Below, piece after piece: positions 18,632 through 63,684 of a stretch of DNA of 64,000 nt. The notes below the pieces were generated by a model. It was not told where the DNA came from and ran no database searches. It saw only the letters and a program-made list of their open reading frames with translations. The translations under genes were made by a program, and so were the position numbers. Source of the DNA: Atrichornis clamosus (lineage: Eukaryota > Chordata > Aves > Passeriformes > Menuridae); the NCBI GenBank assembly GCA_013400975.1, contig WBMZ01011894.1, positions 124,001 to 188,000 of the forward strand. The letters run 5' to 3'. Positions within the stretch are counted from its first letter, which is position 1, and the number at the start of each line of letters is the position of its first letter.

Positions 18632-18719
18632 GCAGGTGACAAGCATTATCATCCAAGCTGTGCACGATGCAGCAGATGCAACCAAATGTTCACAGAAGGA
18701 GAAGAAATGTATCTGCAAG
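18632..18719 (+). CDS. ABLIM1: ABLIM1 exon: LIM domain 4, zinc-binding core
   Basis: An 88-nt exon (phase 0 in, 1 out) encodes AGDKHYHPSCARCSRCNQMF and continues to MYLQ plus one base of a Gly codon. It carries H-P-S-C-x2-C-x2-C, the zinc-ligand pattern in the middle of a LIM domain; the first CxxC pair must be in the upstream exon, which is not in the window. The acceptor is TTTCTGTTTAG and the donor G|GTAAGG. A second AG four bases downstream would shift the frame and is probably not used. In the protein this is the last of four LIM modules, which bind partner proteins rather than actin. The HYHPSCARCSRCNQMF run matches ABLIM1 as I recall it, while ABLIM2 and ABLIM3 have CALCVRC or CARCVRC. 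Confidence 0.95.
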
Positions 18720-23228: not shown

Positions 23229-23287
23229 GTTCCACTGTCTGGCATCCCGACTGTAAGCAATCCACTAAGACTGAAGAGAAGCTCCGG
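23229..23287 (+). CDS. ABLIM1: ABLIM1 exon: end of LIM domain 4
   Basis: A 59-nt exon (phase 1 in, 0 out) encodes GSTVWHPDCKQSTKTEEKLR when joined to the previous Gly base. W-H-P-D-C supplies the last zinc ligands of LIM4 (H-x2-C), and the Lys/Glu-rich tail begins the linker. The acceptor is CCCTCCCTCAG and the donor CGG|GTAAGC. The peptide is identical to ABLIM1 as I recall it; ABLIM2 and ABLIM3 read differently here (CRQAA or CKQAA). The next constitutive exon is at 32203, with the optional cassette at 25637 between; both joins keep phase 0. Confidence 0.95.
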
Positions 23288-32202: not shown

Positions 32203-32280
32203 CCTACAAGAACATCATCAGAAAGCATTTATTCCAGACCAGGTTCCAGTATACCTGGTTCTCCAGGCCACACTATCTAT
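32203..32280 (+). CDS. ABLIM1: ABLIM1 linker exon (PTRTSSESIYSRPG)
   Basis: A 78-nt exon (0-0, 26 codons) encodes PTRTSSESIYSRPGSSIPGS followed by PGHTIY. The acceptor is TTTTTCAG and the donor TAT|GTAAGT is a consensus match. The peptide is the same as mammalian ABLIM1 in my recollection. It is Ser/Thr/Pro rich, without predicted fold, and contains basic-directed Ser sites of the kind phosphorylated in this linker. The next exon starts with the conserved AKVDNEILDY block. Confidence 0.95.
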
Positions 32281-34370: not shown

Positions 34371-34526
34371 GCAAAAGTAGACAATGAAATCCTTGATTAC
34401 AAGGATTTAGCAGCCATTCCCAAAGTCAAGGCCATTTATGACATTGAGCGTCCAGACCTAATTACTTATGAGCCATTCTACACTTCCGCCTACGAGGACA
34501 GACAGGAGAGACAGAGTCTTGGAGAG
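34371..34526 (+). CDS. ABLIM1: ABLIM1 conserved linker exon (AKVDNEILDYK)
   Basis: A 156-nt exon (0-0, 52 codons) begins AKVDNEILDYKDLAAIPKVK, continues AIYDIERPDLITYEPFY, and ends RQERQSLGE. The acceptor is GACCTTTAG and the donor GAG|GTAATG. This is the most conserved part of the ABLIM linker. The version with IPKVKAIYDIERPDLITYEP identifies ABLIM1 against ABLIM3 (LPKVKSIYDVQRPDLISYEP) and ABLIM2 (LPKSKAIYDIDRPDMISYSP). The tyrosines here are plausible phosphorylation sites. Small bird-specific changes are visible near the end (SAYEDR where I recall SGYDDK). Confidence 0.97.
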
Positions 34527-39151: not shown

Positions 39152-39187
39152 TCTCCAAGGACATTATCACCTACCCCTTCTGCAGAA
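39152..39187 (+). CDS. ABLIM1: ABLIM1 linker mini-exon (SPRTLSPTPSAE)
   Basis: A 36-nt exon (0-0, 12 codons) encodes SPRTLSPTPSAE. The acceptor is TGTCTTTGCAG and the donor GAA|GTAAGT. It holds several Ser/Thr-Pro motifs, which are candidate sites for proline-directed kinases. The peptide is identical to ABLIM1 as I recall it. It is small and symmetric, so it could be skipped without a frameshift. Confidence 0.95.
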
Positions 39188-40437: not shown

Positions 40438-40567
40438 GGTTACCAGGATGTTCGGGACCGCATGATTCACAGGTCCACCAGCCAGGGCTCCATCAACTCT
40501 CCCGTGTACAGTCGGCACAGCTACACCCCCACCATGTCACGCTCCCCCCAGCATTTCCACAGACCTG
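40438..40567 (+). CDS. ABLIM1: ABLIM1 linker exon (GYQDVRDRMIHRSTSQGS)
   Basis: A 130-nt exon (phase 0 in, 1 out) begins GYQDVRDRMIHRSTSQGSIN, continues SPVYSRHSYTPTMSRSPQHF, and ends HRP plus one base. The acceptor is GTCCTGCAG and the donor G|GTAAGG. It is a Ser/Tyr-rich, basic, probably disordered segment. The Met in DRMIH is the first in-frame Met downstream of the intronic CpG island and could start a LIM-less short form. It matches ABLIM1 apart from a few changes (PTMSRS where I recall PTTSRS). It begins the switch from phase-0 to phase-1 exons. Confidence 0.97.
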
Positions 40568-48805: not shown

Positions 48806-48910
48806 GCAATGAGCCGTCCAGCGGTCGGAACTCCCCTGTCCCCTATCGGCCTGACAGTCGCCCTCTCACTCCAACTTACGCTCAGGCCCCTAAACATTTC
48901 CATGTTCCAG
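48806..48910 (+). CDS. ABLIM1: ABLIM1 linker exon (NEPSSGRNSPVPYRPDSRP)
   Basis: A 105-nt exon (1-1, 35 codons) encodes GNEPSSGRNSPVPYRPDSRP then LTPTYAQAPKHFHVP plus one base. The acceptor ends TTGGAG, with a long T-rich tract upstream; the donor is CCAG|GTAGG. The (T)YAQAPKHFHVP end is a signature shared by the ABLIM family (ABLIM2 QQAPRHFHVP, ABLIM3 YQAPKHFHIP). The first half matches ABLIM1. It is disordered and Ser/Pro rich, with symmetric phase. Confidence 0.96.
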
Positions 48911-51187: not shown

Positions 51188-51235
51188 ATCAAGGTGTCAA
51201 CATTTACAGGAAACCGCCCATCTACAAACAACACG
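51188..51235 (+). CDS. ABLIM1: ABLIM1 linker mini-exon (DQGVNIYRKPPIYKQH)
   Basis: A 48-nt exon (1-1, 16 codons) encodes DQGVNIYRKPPIYKQH across the junction. The acceptor is ATATCACAG and the donor CACG|GTAAAT, a somewhat weak donor. IYRKPPIY(K/R)(Q/R)H is the strongest linker signature shared by all ABLIM proteins and looks like a short linear motif with tyrosines. The exon could be skipped in frame. Confidence 0.97.
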
Positions 51236-53308: not shown

Positions 53309-53455
53309 ATGCAGCTGCCTTGGCAGCACAGAGCAAGTCCTCCGAGGATATCATCAAGTCCTCCAAGTTCCCAGCAGCTCATGCACCAGCACCCAACGAG
53401 ATACCAAAGATTGAGACTGACCACTGGCCAGGCCCTCCCTCCCTTGCTGCCGTAG
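53309..53455 (+). CDS. ABLIM1: ABLIM1 linker exon (AALAAQSKSSEDIIK)
   Basis: A 147-nt exon (1-1) encodes ...AAALAAQSKSSEDIIKSSKF, then PAAHAPAPNEIPKIETDHWP and GPPSLAAV plus one base. The donor is TAG|GTATGC. Two acceptors six bases apart are possible: at 53308 the join reads QH-DA-AALAAQ, and at 53314 it reads QH-AALAAQ, which is the form I recall for mammals. Both keep frame. SEDIIK and KIETDHWPGPP match ABLIM1. The role is linker, with a possible interaction motif at DHWPGPP; the function of that motif is unknown to me. Confidence 0.95.
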   Translation: MQLPWQHRASPPRISSSPPSSQQLMHQHPTRYQRLRLTTGQALPPLLP

Positions 53456-55148: not shown

Positions 55149-55240
55149 GAGCTGACATGAGGCGCAGATCCAGTGGAAGAGAGGAAGATGATGAGGAGCT
55201 GCAGAGACGCCGGCAGCTGCAGGAGGAGCAGCTCATGAAG
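55149..55240 (+). CDS. ABLIM1: ABLIM1 exon: charged coiled-coil-like segment
   Basis: A 92-nt exon (phase 1 in, 0 out) encodes GADMRRRSSGREEDDEELQR then RRQLQEEQLMK. The donor is AAG|GTGGTT. RRRSSG is a classic basophilic-kinase context, and EEDDEELQRRRQLQEEQLMK has the alternating acidic, basic and Leu pattern of a helix or short coiled coil continuing into the next exon. It matches ABLIM1 apart from small changes (MRRR where I recall MKRR, ELQR where I recall ELLR). Confidence 0.97.
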
Positions 55241-55390: not shown

Positions 55391-55411
55391 TAACTCTGTT
55401 TTGGGNTGTAG
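55241..55411 (+). other. ABLIM1: Short ABLIM1 intron with poly-T tract and an undetermined base
   Basis: A 171-nt phase-0 intron. A TA repeat and 29 consecutive T lie at 55349-55387, and an N at 55406 stands five bases before the acceptor AG ends. The N and the homopolymer suggest a difficult sequencing spot. The acceptor reads GGGNTGTAG. Confidence 0.85.
55359..55387 (+). repeat. Poly-T homopolymer
   Basis: Twenty-nine consecutive T follow a short TA run. It could serve as an unusually long pyrimidine tract for the acceptor at 55411, though a homopolymer's length in an assembly is often unreliable. Confidence 0.9.
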
Positions 55412-55508
55412 CTCAACTCTGGTCTGGGACAGTTGATACTGAAGGAAGAGATGGAGAAGGAGAGTCGCGGTAGGTCAGCCCTTTCTGCCAGTCGTTACGA
55501 TTCTCCAG
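55412..55508 (+). CDS. ABLIM1: ABLIM1 exon (LNSGLGQLILKEEMEKE)
   Basis: A 97-nt exon (phase 0 in, 1 out) encodes LNSGLGQLILKEEMEKESRG then RSALSASRYDSP plus one base. The donor is CCAG|GTAATT. The S(G)(L/I)G(Q/R)LILKEEM core is conserved in ABLIM1 and ABLIM3 and continues the helical region begun in the exon at 55149. Differences from mammals as I recall them are G for E in SRGR and SALSAS for SSLLAS. Confidence 0.96.
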
Positions 55509-56799: not shown

Positions 56800-56861
56800 C
56801 ACATGCTGCAGCCTCCAAAACTTCTTCTCTCCCTGGGTATGGAAAAAATGGACTTCACAGG
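56800..56861 (+). CDS. ABLIM1: ABLIM1 exon (SLPGYGKNGLHR)
   Basis: A 62-nt exon (phase 1 in, 0 out) encodes AHAAASKTSSLPGYGKNGLH then R. The donor is AGG|GTAAGA. SLP(G/A)Y(G/R)(K/R)NGLHR is shared by the ABLIM family. The segment before it is about four residues shorter than the mammalian version I recall (INSASHIPSSKTAS). A second AG, 12 nt into the exon (start 56812), would also keep frame and give SP-ASKTSSLPG, so two acceptors are possible. Confidence 0.93.
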
Positions 56862-57174: not shown

Positions 57175-57235
57175 CCGGTGTCTACGGACTTTGGTCAGTA
57201 CAACAGTTACGGGGATGTGAGTGGTGCTGTTAGAG
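57175..57235 (+). CDS. ABLIM1: ABLIM1 exon (PVSTDFGQYNSYGDVSGAVR)
   Basis: A 61-nt exon (phase 0 in, 1 out) encodes PVSTDFGQYNSYGDVSGAVR plus one Gly/Asp base. The acceptor is CTGTTGCAG and the donor AGAG|GTAAGG. It is a tyrosine-containing linker close to the headpiece and nearly identical to ABLIM1 as I recall it (DFAQY, SGGVR). The next annotated large exon is in phase 0, so a connecting exon with two extra bases is needed; the 8-nt microexon at 57936 supplies this. Confidence 0.96.
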
Positions 57236-57935
57236 GTAAGGCTGAGGAGCCTTTACAGCCCCTTCATTACTGAACGTGGTACCATGTTTGATCACCTCTG
57301 CTGTTTTATTTTAAGGCTGTGGATGGGGTTACTTTGTATTTGCTCCGAACATTTTCATTTTCCCTGGCAAACTCAACAATTGACTCAAAACACTTCATAC
57401 GCCTGTTAAAAATGTTGGGTTTATCTTGCTAAATCTGCTGTGTGGAACTGATCCTTGTTTATGCCAAGGGACTGCTTCAGCATTGGGTTAAATGGAAGGC
57501 AAGTAATATGTGCATTATGAGGAACAAGAGCTGAGTTCTGTGATGGTGTTTTCTTTGGAAATTACCATCCACTGTGCAGTCTGAAAGAATGTGCCACAGT
57601 GAAGAAAGGGAGCTAATGCCTTCTAATTAATCCTGCTGCTCAGGATCTTCATTATCACTTTGAGCTAGATGTGGTTAGGCTAGTCATTGCCTAATAAAAA
57701 TTCACCATAATATCTATGAAAGTTATGAAGCTTGGAGAGTTAAGGGCTGCAATACCTGGAGTATCTGACTTCACAAACTGAGTCCAAAATTAGGAATGCT
57801 GCTGGCCTTAGAGAAACAGATGTGATTGTGGAAAAGTCATGTAGACCAGAAGACACAAGGATTATCTGGCAGATTGAGACTGACTCCTGTTCTTCAGCAC
57901 TCTGAAGCTGATGAGAGTTCTCTTTTTCTTTTCAG
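57236..57935 (+). other. ABLIM1: ABLIM1 intron before the microexon
   Basis: A 700-nt phase-1 intron ending in TCTCTTTTTCTTTTCAG, a very strong pyrimidine tract, as expected for a microexon acceptor. Nothing else was recognised. Confidence 0.8.
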
Positions 57936-57943
57936 ATTTCCAG
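57936..57943 (+). CDS. ABLIM1: ABLIM1 8-nt microexon (D-F-Q)
   Basis: The 8 bases ATTTCCAG lie between a strong acceptor (CTTTTTCTTTTCAG) and a fair donor (GTAGAG). With the G left over from the exon at 57175 they encode Asp-Phe-Gln and convert phase 1 to phase 0, which the exon at 59208 requires. The joined peptide reads VR-DFQ-SLPDGH, against VRDYQTLPDGH as I recall mammalian ABLIM1. Without it, direct joining of the flanking exons would shift frame. It is far below the size gene finders normally detect, so automatic annotations may miss it and mis-predict the C-terminus. Confidence 0.88.
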
Positions 57944-59207
57944 GTAGAGTACGGCTTTTCATCAATCAACTGACAGCAGAACTTAAAGCAGCTACTTGTT
58001 CACGTCTGAATTTCTGCTACAGGGAAGGGTTTCTTAAGACAATAGCTTTGATTTTTCCTGCATGTTTAAGCATAATCACCAATGTAGATTCTTATCACCG
58101 AAACACAGGCACAGCCTCGGATTCCTCCTTGTTACCTCCCCAGAGCTGAGTCGAGGCAGCTCACACCAGTTCTGTGACTTGCTCTGTAAAGTCCACTGTC
58201 TGTTTATCTATGAGTTACCTGTCATAGTCTTCTCTGGACACGTGAGGGTGGATTTATTTCCAGCCTTTCCAGTACTGACCCCAGAGACATAGAGAGAGTC
58301 TCTTCCAGAGGCAATTTTCTCTCATACCAGGAGCTTTGAACTCCTCATTTTTACCCTGGAATTTGCTCTCCAGACAAGATGGCTGATCAGTAGTTTTCTA
58401 CAGTGCTGCCATCACAGATGAGCCAGAAAGAGGTGTGCTTGCAAATAGAAACCTTTTTGCTTCACTTACTGCCTGCAGAGTTTTTCTCAGAATGGTTTGA
58501 GTCTGACTGGCTCCTCAGCACAATCACAATATGAAATGGCAATTTAAGAAAGAGTTTAATTACTTGGATAATTTTGTTAATGGCATATCAAAATCATGAT
58601 GATTGGAAAGAGAATAAGATTATGGGAGGGGAGCAGAGTTGTCCATGTATTGTGCTCCAAATGTTATTTCCTTAGAAACAGTACCTGTGTCAAAACAGCA
58701 CCTTTTTACCCTATCCCTGTTTGTGTTCGTAGTAAAAATTCCCCGTTGAAGAGACAAAAAAAGAGAAATCCCTCAGTTGATATAGTAAATGACAGGAAGG
58801 AAAGCCCAGAGGTGTAAGAGTGCTTTGTATGCTGTTGGGTGGGATCGGAATTAATGCTAGAGAAGAACTAGAGAAGAACTTCACTCAGTCCCTGGGATGG
58901 GAAAGGGCTTCCTCTGTCTTGAGGTGCCCAAGTCCACCTAGAAAGTGATGCTGGTCAGCTCAGTGAGGAGCTGTCACCAGCCTTAGCAGTGACAGGAGGC
59001 TGTGGTGGCAGAGAGGACTGCAGGATCCTTCTGTGTGCCCCAGAGAGTAATGAAGAGTAGCCATGGCAATGATCTATAATAAGACTAAGAATTAAGACTG
59101 GAAGGAAGTGTCAGGGCAAATTCACCTGTGTTTTCACCACTACTTGAGTGCCTTTTCCCTCTGTGTGTGTAACCTTTGTGTCTGATGTATACCTGTATCT
59201 GATGCAG
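57944..59207 (+). other. ABLIM1: ABLIM1 intron, 1.3 kb
   Basis: A phase-0 intron, GTAGAG to TGTATCTGATGCAG. No gene or confident repeat was seen. Confidence 0.75.
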
Positions 59208-59282
59208 TCCCTTCCGGATGGTCATGTCCCTGGAATGAGAATGGACAGAGGAGTATCTATGCCTAACATGTTGGAGCCAAAG
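59208..59282 (+). CDS. ABLIM1: ABLIM1 exon (SLPDGHVPGMRMDRGVSMPN)
   Basis: A 75-nt exon (0-0, 25 codons) encodes SLPDGHVPGMRMDRGVSMPN then MLEPK. The acceptor is TATCTGATGCAG. The donor is CCAAAG|GCAAGT, a non-canonical GC donor with otherwise perfect consensus flanks (AAG|GCAAGT). It encodes the Met-rich segment just before the headpiece. No GT donor nearby would preserve EPK-IFPYE. It is symmetric and so skippable; ABLIM2 and ABLIM3 have no equivalent Met-rich stretch in my recollection. Confidence 0.95.
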
Positions 59283-62238
59283 GCAAGTGCAGATGTTATT
59301 CACTTTCCTTCAAGACATTGAAGGTTTTACTGTGAAATGCAGATAAAATACGGGAAATGTCTTAGTTCCCTTGTTTTCCTTGACCTCACCTCAGTCCCTG
59401 CTCCTTATGTGCCAAACCTGTCCCTTTGTTCTGGACCTCACCTGTTGCAGGCTGAGGCTGCCCAGGTGCTTCCTGCCTTAAGGAAGCTTTTCCAGGGGCA
59501 AAGTGAAGGATACAGGTGCTCCATAGCTGGTTGTCTGTCAGACTTTCACCAGCCAAAACACCAGGCCAAGCTCAGTGGGAAGGTCTCCGTTTGAAAAGTG
59601 CTGCAGCACACTGTGGCTCACAACACACTGCTGAGACTGTCTGAGTGTATAAATTGAGGGGATACATGGATCTTTGATTGGAAGTAAGATACTACATATC
59701 TGTCTGGATCTGTTTTTTAGCTCTCAGCACTGTTAACCTGAGACCTCTCACTAATATTGAATTCCTTATATGAGGAACTCTTCAAGAGATTTATTGGAAA
59801 AAGAGAAATTAAAATGCTTTCAGAGCTATTTCTAGAGATGCTTGATTCAAAAATGAATATAATAAATAGAGGGAATTCAACCAGGGTTGTGTTTTAAATC
59901 TTACAACTTTATTGCTGGTGAACCTTCCATGAAATCATGATTTTGCCAAAGTTACAAGGATCAGAATTTCTGCAGTTAAGTGAGGAGCTCACTTTGCAAA
60001 CCAGATCACTACTTGTGCTTCCGAGTCACCTCCAGACAAACTGTGCAAGGCAATAACCCTGGCTTTATAAGCTGAGTCCCCAGTGCACTGTACAGTTACA
60101 AGTGGGTTTATATATTATATAAACAAGACCTTGGGGACTCCTGAGATACTACTTTTTATTCCAAATAATTTCTTTTTCAGTGCAATAGAAATTCTTACAG
60201 CCACCACTGCTGTTGATGTACCCAGTCATTTGGGATGCTATTCTGGGTGACAAATTCTGTCAGTATTATTAATGACAAAATTTAACAATAATGTATTAAT
60301 TATTATTTTAATGATAAAATTTATGGGAATTTTCATGAGATAGTAGGTCACTTTCTGTTGATGTTTATAAAGGTGATGCCAAACCCTCAGCATGTGTGAA
60401 TTGGCACTGTTTTTATTCATGTGAATGGTCCAACACTAACTTAAACCTCACAAAGCAAAATAAGCCAATTCAAAGTCAGCATGAAAAATATGAAAAGTGA
60501 AAATTAATAACCTTAAGAATGACTAAATCTTACTAAATGGTTCTCCAGAAAGGACAGAATTTGTGCATCCTGCCAACCCAGATTGAGACATGCCTTGTTG
60601 TGAATATTTAAATATAAAATGTACTTATGACCGTAGATCTTGACTGAAACTCTGCCTGTTTAAATATGAAAAGTTACATTTTAGTTTCCTATAATGCTGT
60701 TTATGGTAGCCATTTCCAGTATCAAACATAAGCAATGTAATTCCAAGTATAGACTTAATTGTACAACTGTGACAATGTCAGAATCTCATAAGAATCATAT
60801 CTTACAATTGGTATGTAAGCACACGTTACTTAAATTACTATTACTTACAATAAACTCAGTGGTGTGTTCATTGATGCCTGAATGTTATTTATTATATTTT
60901 TGAAAAGTTCATTGGGATCATTGTTAACAATGGAATGAGCTTAATTGCTGAGTGCTGCACACAAGTCAATTAGGTCAAATTTCTTCTGATGTTGAAATAA
61001 TGTGATGAATAGCATTTGATAATAGCTCAGCTCTCTCCAGGAGAGTTTTGGTGGTCTCACTCATGTCAGTAAGACAAGACCCATAAATGACAGTCAAGGC
61101 TGAGCCAGCCAGTTGCCACTGAAGTTTCCAGAAAAACTTCATTGACTTCAGTAGGGGTTGGATGAGGGGTCTGGGAATGCTGCTCTCCTACTCTGCAGAG
61201 ACCTGAAGTGAGAAGGGCTCTGGAGAAGCTCTGGCAGACAGAACATGAGCTCTCCTAAGCCAGTCCAGGCCCAAAAGTGTCTGTCCAAGGAAAAAAATCC
61301 TAGAACAGAGTTTTATTTGCCAGGGATGATTCCAGAAACTGAGTTTGATATTTTCTGAAATCCTTTCCAAGCAGCATTGTTTGTATTAGAGTAGCCTGAT
61401 TTGAGACCCACTGACAGTAAAGAGTTCTTCAAACAAAGAACCTGCACACGTAAAACAAAAGGTAAATGATTTATGCAATCAGGAGTTGATTATTTGCCAA
61501 TATCTGATATATATTAGTTCTGGACATTCTTTGCAATGTAAAGGGAAATCAAGGGAAATGTTAATGGGAGATGTGCTGGACTCTTCTGAAGCAGATAAAG
61601 GTGCATAAGACAGGTATGTCTCCAGAAGTATCTCCTTTAATCCATGTGTATAGCACAGCCAGCAAGCACAGTGGGCAATTGTTTGAATTCTTTAACTATC
61701 CAGAAAGGCAAAGACAATCATGATAAATTCAATTGAATGTAGTGGCCCCCACTAATTAATATCTTGTTTATTTAGAGATGCTGCTTTTTTTAATGTACTT
61801 TCATGTTTTAGAAGTCCACTCACTAACTGCTTGTCCTTAAGGGCTGTCCACACTCTGACAACCAATGACTGACAAATGCAATTACCTTAATGAACTTGCA
61901 TATTGATGGATGAGAAAGTACATTAACTAGAAAGGACTCTGACCAAAGCCAGCTGATGTGTTATTTACACCATATAAATCAGTGAGGTGGGGAAGTTCGT
62001 AGTGGATTTACAATATGAGGCAGTTCAATGCTAAACAAGTTCTGGCTCTGTCCAGATCAGTTTGTCTTCCATACAACTTTAGGGAAAAAATATATTAACT
62101 TCCCCTCACCCCCTATTTGCTTTGAAAATGAAAACAGATGAACAGATGTTTGTGTGTTTATGAAAATGAGACACATTTTGTTCTGTCTGCTTTAGAATAT
62201 AAATATCTCTTTTTCCCCCTTTTATACATTGTTAACAG
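59283..62238 (+). other. ABLIM1: ABLIM1 GC-AG intron, 3.0 kb
   Basis: A phase-0 intron beginning GCAAGT and ending CATTGTTAACAG. AT-rich throughout (strikingly so at 60.24-60.33 kb), without visible gene or confident repeat. Confidence 0.8.
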
Positions 62239-62319
62239 ATTTTTCCATATGAAATACTCATGGTGACCAACAGAGGGCGAAATAAAATACTAAAAGATGT
62301 AGACAGAACCAGGCTGGAG
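62239..62319 (+). CDS. ABLIM1: ABLIM1 exon: start of the headpiece (IFPYEILMVTNRGR)
   Basis: An 81-nt exon (0-0, 27 codons) encodes IFPYEILMVTNRGRNKILKD then VDRTRLE. The acceptor is TTGTTAACAG and the donor GAG|GTAAGA. (I/K)(F/Y)PYE.L.VT.RGR followed by (D)VDRTRLE opens the villin-type headpiece region as in dematin and all ABLIM proteins. The segment supplies the N-terminal half of this F-actin-binding domain. ILKD where I recall ILRE is a minor change. Confidence 0.97.
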
Positions 62320-63570: not shown

Positions 63571-63684
63571 CGTCACTTAGCACCTGAAGTTTTTCAAGAG
63601 ATATTTGGCATGACGATACAGGAGTTTGACAAGTTACCTCTCTGGAGACGCAACGACATGAAGAAAAAAGCAAAACTCTTTTAA
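63571..63684 (+). CDS. ABLIM1: ABLIM1 last exon: villin headpiece C-terminus and stop
   Basis: A 114-nt coding end (37 codons plus TAA) encodes [20 protein letters not shown] then [17 protein letters not shown]. It is the C-terminal helical subdomain of the villin headpiece: the hydrophobic F-x3-FGM...F core, the W, the basic K/R patch and the terminal hydrophobic residue expected for F-actin binding are all present. [13 protein letters not shown] is the ABLIM1 form; ABLIM2 ends KKALLF and ABLIM3 ends KKQARLF. In the cell this end anchors the protein to actin filaments. The TAA at 63682-63684 closes a frame consistent over all exons. Confidence 0.98.

Follow-up and report, generated by a model that had tools for sequence, protein, structure and literature searches.

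An 8-nt microexon of ABLIM1 in Atrichornis clamosus and a putative second C-terminus entered through its weak donor

The 8-nt segment ATTTCCAG lies inside an intron near the 3′ end of the ABLIM1 coding region, and it raises the question of whether so short a piece of DNA is a true exon and how it affects the end of the protein. The window analyzed here is the whole 64,000-nt stretch of Atrichornis clamosus DNA. We conclude that the microexon is real, and we estimate a probability of roughly 0.78 that it serves two endings of abLIM1: one with the headpiece, and one without it that is reached by reading through the microexon donor.

Gene model and location of the microexon

ABLIM1 occupies the + strand, with 17 coding exons in the window running from LIM4 to the stop codon. 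The exons were placed by human sequence first, with the splice sites of the window then taken as bounds. Exons 1-6 were located at 18632-18719, 23229-23287, 32203-32280, 34371-34526, 39152-39187 and 40438-40567, and exons 7-12 at 48806-48910, 51188-51235, 53315-53455, 55149-55240, 55412-55508 and 56812-56861. The next exon (57175..57235, 61 nt) ends in phase 1 at the strong donor GAG/gtaagg and is followed by the microexon at 57936..57943. Downstream of it are a 75-nt exon (59208..59282) in phase 0 at both ends, an 81-nt exon (62239..62319) where the headpiece region starts (IFPYE...), and the final coding exon (63571..63684) with the headpiece core and a TAA stop. The preliminary description had given 59208 as the start of the 75-nt exon; this start is retained, and the exon is now closed at 59282 on the GC donor AAG/gcaagt. 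The reading frame continues over this joint, which supports the resulting GC-AG intron, 59283-62238. The sole N of the window, at 55406, falls inside the acceptor of exon 55412-55508.

The joined model encodes 472 residues with a single, terminal stop. Two Pfam families scored above their cut-offs: AbLIM_anchor (PF16182, 472.2 bits) and VHP, the villin headpiece (PF02209, 57.9 bits). LIM scored 22.5 bits, slightly below its cut-off of 22.9, because the model begins within LIM4. An AbLIM_anchor region combined with a C-terminal villin headpiece places the protein in the abLIM family, and its nearest relatives carry the name actin-binding LIM protein 1. A PDB search with the full protein matched the headpieces of dematin, an ABLIM3-like protein and ABLIM2, which does not settle the matter of the microexon; with the 31-residue downstream exon, the PDB search gave nothing useful.

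Evidence for the microexon and properties of its splice sites

The segment sits between ...ctctttttcttttcag and gtagag. Microexons are defined as exons shorter than about 30 nt flanked by AG and GT, and the present one is 8 nt long in the arrangement cag/ATTTCCAG/gt. It enters in phase 1 and leaves in phase 0, so that (G)AT TTC CAG is read as DFQ and the joint peptide of the gene model becomes SGAVR-DFQ-SLPDGH. In the 1,972-nt host intron there are 261 AG..GT pairs with a spacing of 3-27 nt; 65 are both open and frame-compatible. Among these 65 candidates the microexon ranks first, with a summed splice score of 19.5 versus 11.9 for the runner-up; the scoring matrices were textbook values. When the intron was resampled 300 times with first-order composition, no resampled intron held a candidate equal on both scores, 1% attained the summed score, and in about 1.3% an open candidate encoded DFQ or DYQ.

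Closest proteins were compared through the best 120 listed of 7,992 scored. RD[FY]Q-[ST]L was present at the microexon position in 103 of these 120. SGAVR, the peptide ahead of the microexon, occurs in eight proteins of the same set, belonging to seven passerines and one falcon, which makes a passerine source probable. Two of the proteins carrying the peptide come from short contigs: P0002, 626 residues with RDFQ from a 2,487-nt contig of another species, and P0089, 455 residues with DFQ from a 1,845-nt contig. These contigs are too short to contain the introns of this region and, judged by their length, are therefore very probably transcripts. Together, the gene model, the top rank in the intron and the protein comparison bear out the claim of the preliminary description that the microexon is real, and its claim that the exon is required for the frame also holds, as skipping it shifts the frame. 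The mammalian reading RDYQTLPDGH given in the preliminary description was recovered in the mammalian models listed, the exceptions being P0105 and the marsupial and monotreme models, all with RDFQ.

The microexon peptide was absent from 17 of the best 120 proteins, three of which have other joints and 14 of which read VRGK or similar. The latter raise the possibility that the segment matches an exon by chance and that the true joint uses an upstream donor moved 5 nt onward to GC (GTAAG/GC), giving VRGK-SLPDGH. Such a joint requires a poor GC donor, and all 14 proteins that read it are bird or turtle rows found in UniRef only. Sorted by source, the best 120 proteins carry the microexon peptide in 0/15 UniRef-only sauropsid rows, 5/5 UniRef-only mammalian rows and 98/100 other rows, which points to an exon missed by one annotation route. 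We rejected VRGK as a real joint on this pattern (0/15 versus 98/100) and regard the chance match as scarcely credible; we read VRGK as a repeated annotation error, not a splice form. All 15 UniRef-only models from birds and reptiles within the best 120 miss this tiny exon, which would mean wrong residues in reference proteomes.

The two splice sites of the microexon differ greatly in strength. Its acceptor, tctttttcttttcag at 57921..57935, has the highest score of the 17 in the ABLIM1 model (14.5), while its donor, CAG/gtagag at 57941..57949, has the lowest of 16 (5.0). The site had been described as lying between a strong acceptor and a donor; of the two, the acceptor is strong and the donor is not. 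In neural microexons of the SRRM4 type a UGC motif closely precedes the 3′ splice site; no TGC occurs in the 100 nt upstream of the ABLIM1 microexon (57836-57935). The hexamer TGCATG, which we take to be an RBFOX-type motif, occurs at 58059-58064, 116 nt beyond the donor. It was dismissed as evidence because its count in the window (56, with 57.9 expected) is no higher than chance. A search of the window against Rfam gave no match at gathering score, and viral contigs scanned for exact copies of the microexon flank yielded no stray vertebrate DNA.

According to the available text of PMC4317164, strong 5′ and 3′ splice sites mark constitutive microexons, and in this respect the ABLIM1 microexon, with the weakest donor of its model, does not conform. 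Constitutive microexons with a length not divisible by three are described in PMC9929638 for MPC1 (4 bp), TNNI1, KSR1, TMEM237 and MUSK, with the 3′ splice-site side mattering most in MPC1. The ABLIM1 microexon resembles these in being tiny, not a multiple of three and required for the frame. Unlike them, it has a weak donor whose read-through recurs as an alternative C-terminus. We place it near to the constitutive kind, with the weak donor as its distinguishing feature. ABLIM is not mentioned in the main text of that article.

Probable read-through of the donor and the annotated ending without a headpiece

If the donor is not used, the window encodes DFQVEYGFSSIN followed by a stop, that is, DFQ-VEYGFSSIN. 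The added VEYGFSSIN and its TGA (57971-57973) occupy 57944..57973, where a putative composite terminal exon would set in. In a protein search directed at this tail, all 120 proteins listed (best 120 of 1,696) end in the read-through form and match DFQV[EQ]Y[GR]F.S[IVL][NK]. By hand count they represent 56 species, of which 47 are birds (ranging from passerines to Rhea), seven are turtles and two are geckos. The Pfam column of all 120 lists AbLIM_anchor and LIM, and no VHP (PF02209). Variation among the matches listed is confined to YGF/YRF, VE/VQ, SSIN, SSVN, PSIN, SSIK and SSLK; this constancy is partly built in, because the rows were picked for tail likeness, and neither the frequency nor the variability of the tail can be read from them. 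A second search, with a skip-tail query lacking the read-through tail, listed the best 120 of 456 matches, and 18 of these 120 end in DFQ-VEYGFSSIN or SSVN, compared with 0/120 for the control, read-through of the strong donor of the neighbouring exon. The read-through proteins derive for the most part from automatic gene models. Two of these proteins, P0171 and P0204, are UniRef-only rows, and the form is therefore present in more than one annotation source.

The tail also reports on the donor. A consensus donor has A at +4 and G at +5. The first two tail residues are VE in 105 and VQ in 15 of the 120 read-through proteins listed, which places G or C at +4, followed by A at +5. As V is encoded by GTN after a phase-0 microexon, the donor therefore departs from consensus at both positions in these proteins. 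The nine residues of the tail may be conserved owing to splicing signals in the intron flank.

As annotated protein forms, isoforms that cross the donor into a stop are thus on record, which is the feature expected of a composite terminal exon, and public databases already have entries for both protein forms. Judged by these entries, the form without a headpiece is widely annotated through read-through of the microexon donor, not through skipping. No description of the DFQ-VEYGFSSIN ending was found in the freely accessible main texts consulted on ABLIM1, microexons or polyadenylation. Where ABLIM1 and microexons occur together in the available portions of this literature, the terms are used separately and no ABLIM1 microexon is described; the accessible text on ABLIM1 and intronic polyadenylation deals with MBNL1 and exon 11 instead. 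Two papers on ABLIM1 isoforms and alternative polyadenylation (PMC5599659, PMC11137256) have, in their available parts, other subjects than the microexon.

The read-through ending can be regarded as a variant of composite terminal exons. In those described in the available text of PMC5928244 a donor is left unrecognized and the sequence that follows it forms the end of a shorter isoform, as appears to be the case here. The ABLIM1 case differs in that the extended exon is only 8 nt long, the intron lacks a canonical poly(A) signal and its cleavage is putative; the same text gives a figure of 80% for a canonical signal at composite terminal exon events. Neither AATAAA nor ATTAAA occurs in 57944-59207, although both were also absent from 167/300 resampled introns. 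AGTAAA at 58784..58789, with 66% G+T downstream (52% in the intron), is a weak candidate. A further parallel is the 13-nt microexon near the 3′ end of ARL6, which also chooses between two C-termini (PMC4317164, available part). There the choice is between inclusion and skipping; in ABLIM1 it is apparently between splicing and donor read-through.

Competing explanations and consequences for the headpiece

Under the preferred reading, use of the weak donor lets the microexon bridge phase 1 to phase 0 and gives the long protein with a villin headpiece. When the donor is left unused, the same acceptor would open a longer exon encoding DFQ-VEYGFSSIN-stop, and the protein would end before the headpiece. 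Intronic polyadenylation would close this longer exon and make it a composite terminal exon, and how well U1 defines the weak donor would set the balance of the two endings. Sauropsid gene models suggest that when the donor is ignored, an early stop follows and the actin-binding tail piece is lost. Human abLIM1 without VHP lost its association with F-actin and the cortex, and VHP alone bound neither (PMC6056535, available part). By analogy, loss of the headpiece would weaken binding to F-actin and the cortex, and the headpiece-less form should therefore crosslink weakly. More specifically, and at slightly less than even confidence, we propose that in sauropsids the microexon is a two-way junction at a weak donor: it is indispensable for the frame that leads to the actin-binding headpiece, and it also opens a conserved alternative last exon, VEYGFSSIN, that removes this headpiece. 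U1 strength or intronic polyadenylation would then set how much abLIM1 is of the crosslinking form and how much is not. If so, the actin-binding end would be switched by recognition of the far side of a microexon, not by its inclusion or skipping.

The main rival to intronic polyadenylation is intron retention. On that account the read-through form results from intron retention, or from an exon extended to a later donor, and is destroyed by nonsense-mediated decay; the microexon is then no more than an obligatory bridge for the frame, and unspliced reads have given rise to the VEYGFSSIN models as by-products. The lack of a canonical poly(A) signal in intron 57944-59207 would be expected from it, the later donors at 58241 (6.9) and 58432 (7.3) outscore that of the microexon, and the read-through models are automatic. 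However, by-products of this kind do not readily account for an identical end annotated in 56 species (hand count, best 120 of 1,696), nor for read-through at the microexon in 18/120 proteins listed for the query without the tail as against 0/120 at the neighbouring exon. Annotators treat models that are decay candidates differently from proteins, and the read-through forms are filed as proteins. Retention is a serious explanation, but one that we consider less likely than not.

Skipping of the microexon, proposed in the preliminary description as an on/off switch for actin binding, is improbable as the route to the shorter form, and we rejected it as the main switch. It does shift the frame: the joint 57235-59208 reads VPSGWSCPWNENGQRSIYA-stop. 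This stop precedes the last junction by 97 nt, however, and decay is therefore predicted instead of a truncated protein. Few skip models were found. Those in the skip frame without a headpiece among the matches listed are from elephant and manatee (P0123-P0126), and no clean bird model occurs among the best 120 of 456, where the pigeon pair P0121 and P0122 reads VRDAVPSGW at the joint. From its sequence, VRDAVPSGW looks like a mis-aligned microexon with its bases pushed onto the next exon. The part of the earlier proposal that survives is headpiece loss as an actin-binding switch, which agrees with the human VHP deletion.

Several other joints were noted in this region. In P0123-P0126 the skip frame is open through the headpiece exons and yields a different long C-terminus, whereas the same frame in the window stops at once. 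The models P0127 (Neotoma) and P0128 (Galemys) leave the frame and later rejoin it. Omission of the 75-nt exon 59208-59282 alone would preserve the frame, but such a joint is absent from all 338 proteins retrieved. Finally, the upstream exon contains a donor-like GAT/gtgagt at 57216-57217 that is in frame with the exon starting at 59208; its use would remove VSGAVRDFQ without a frame shift.
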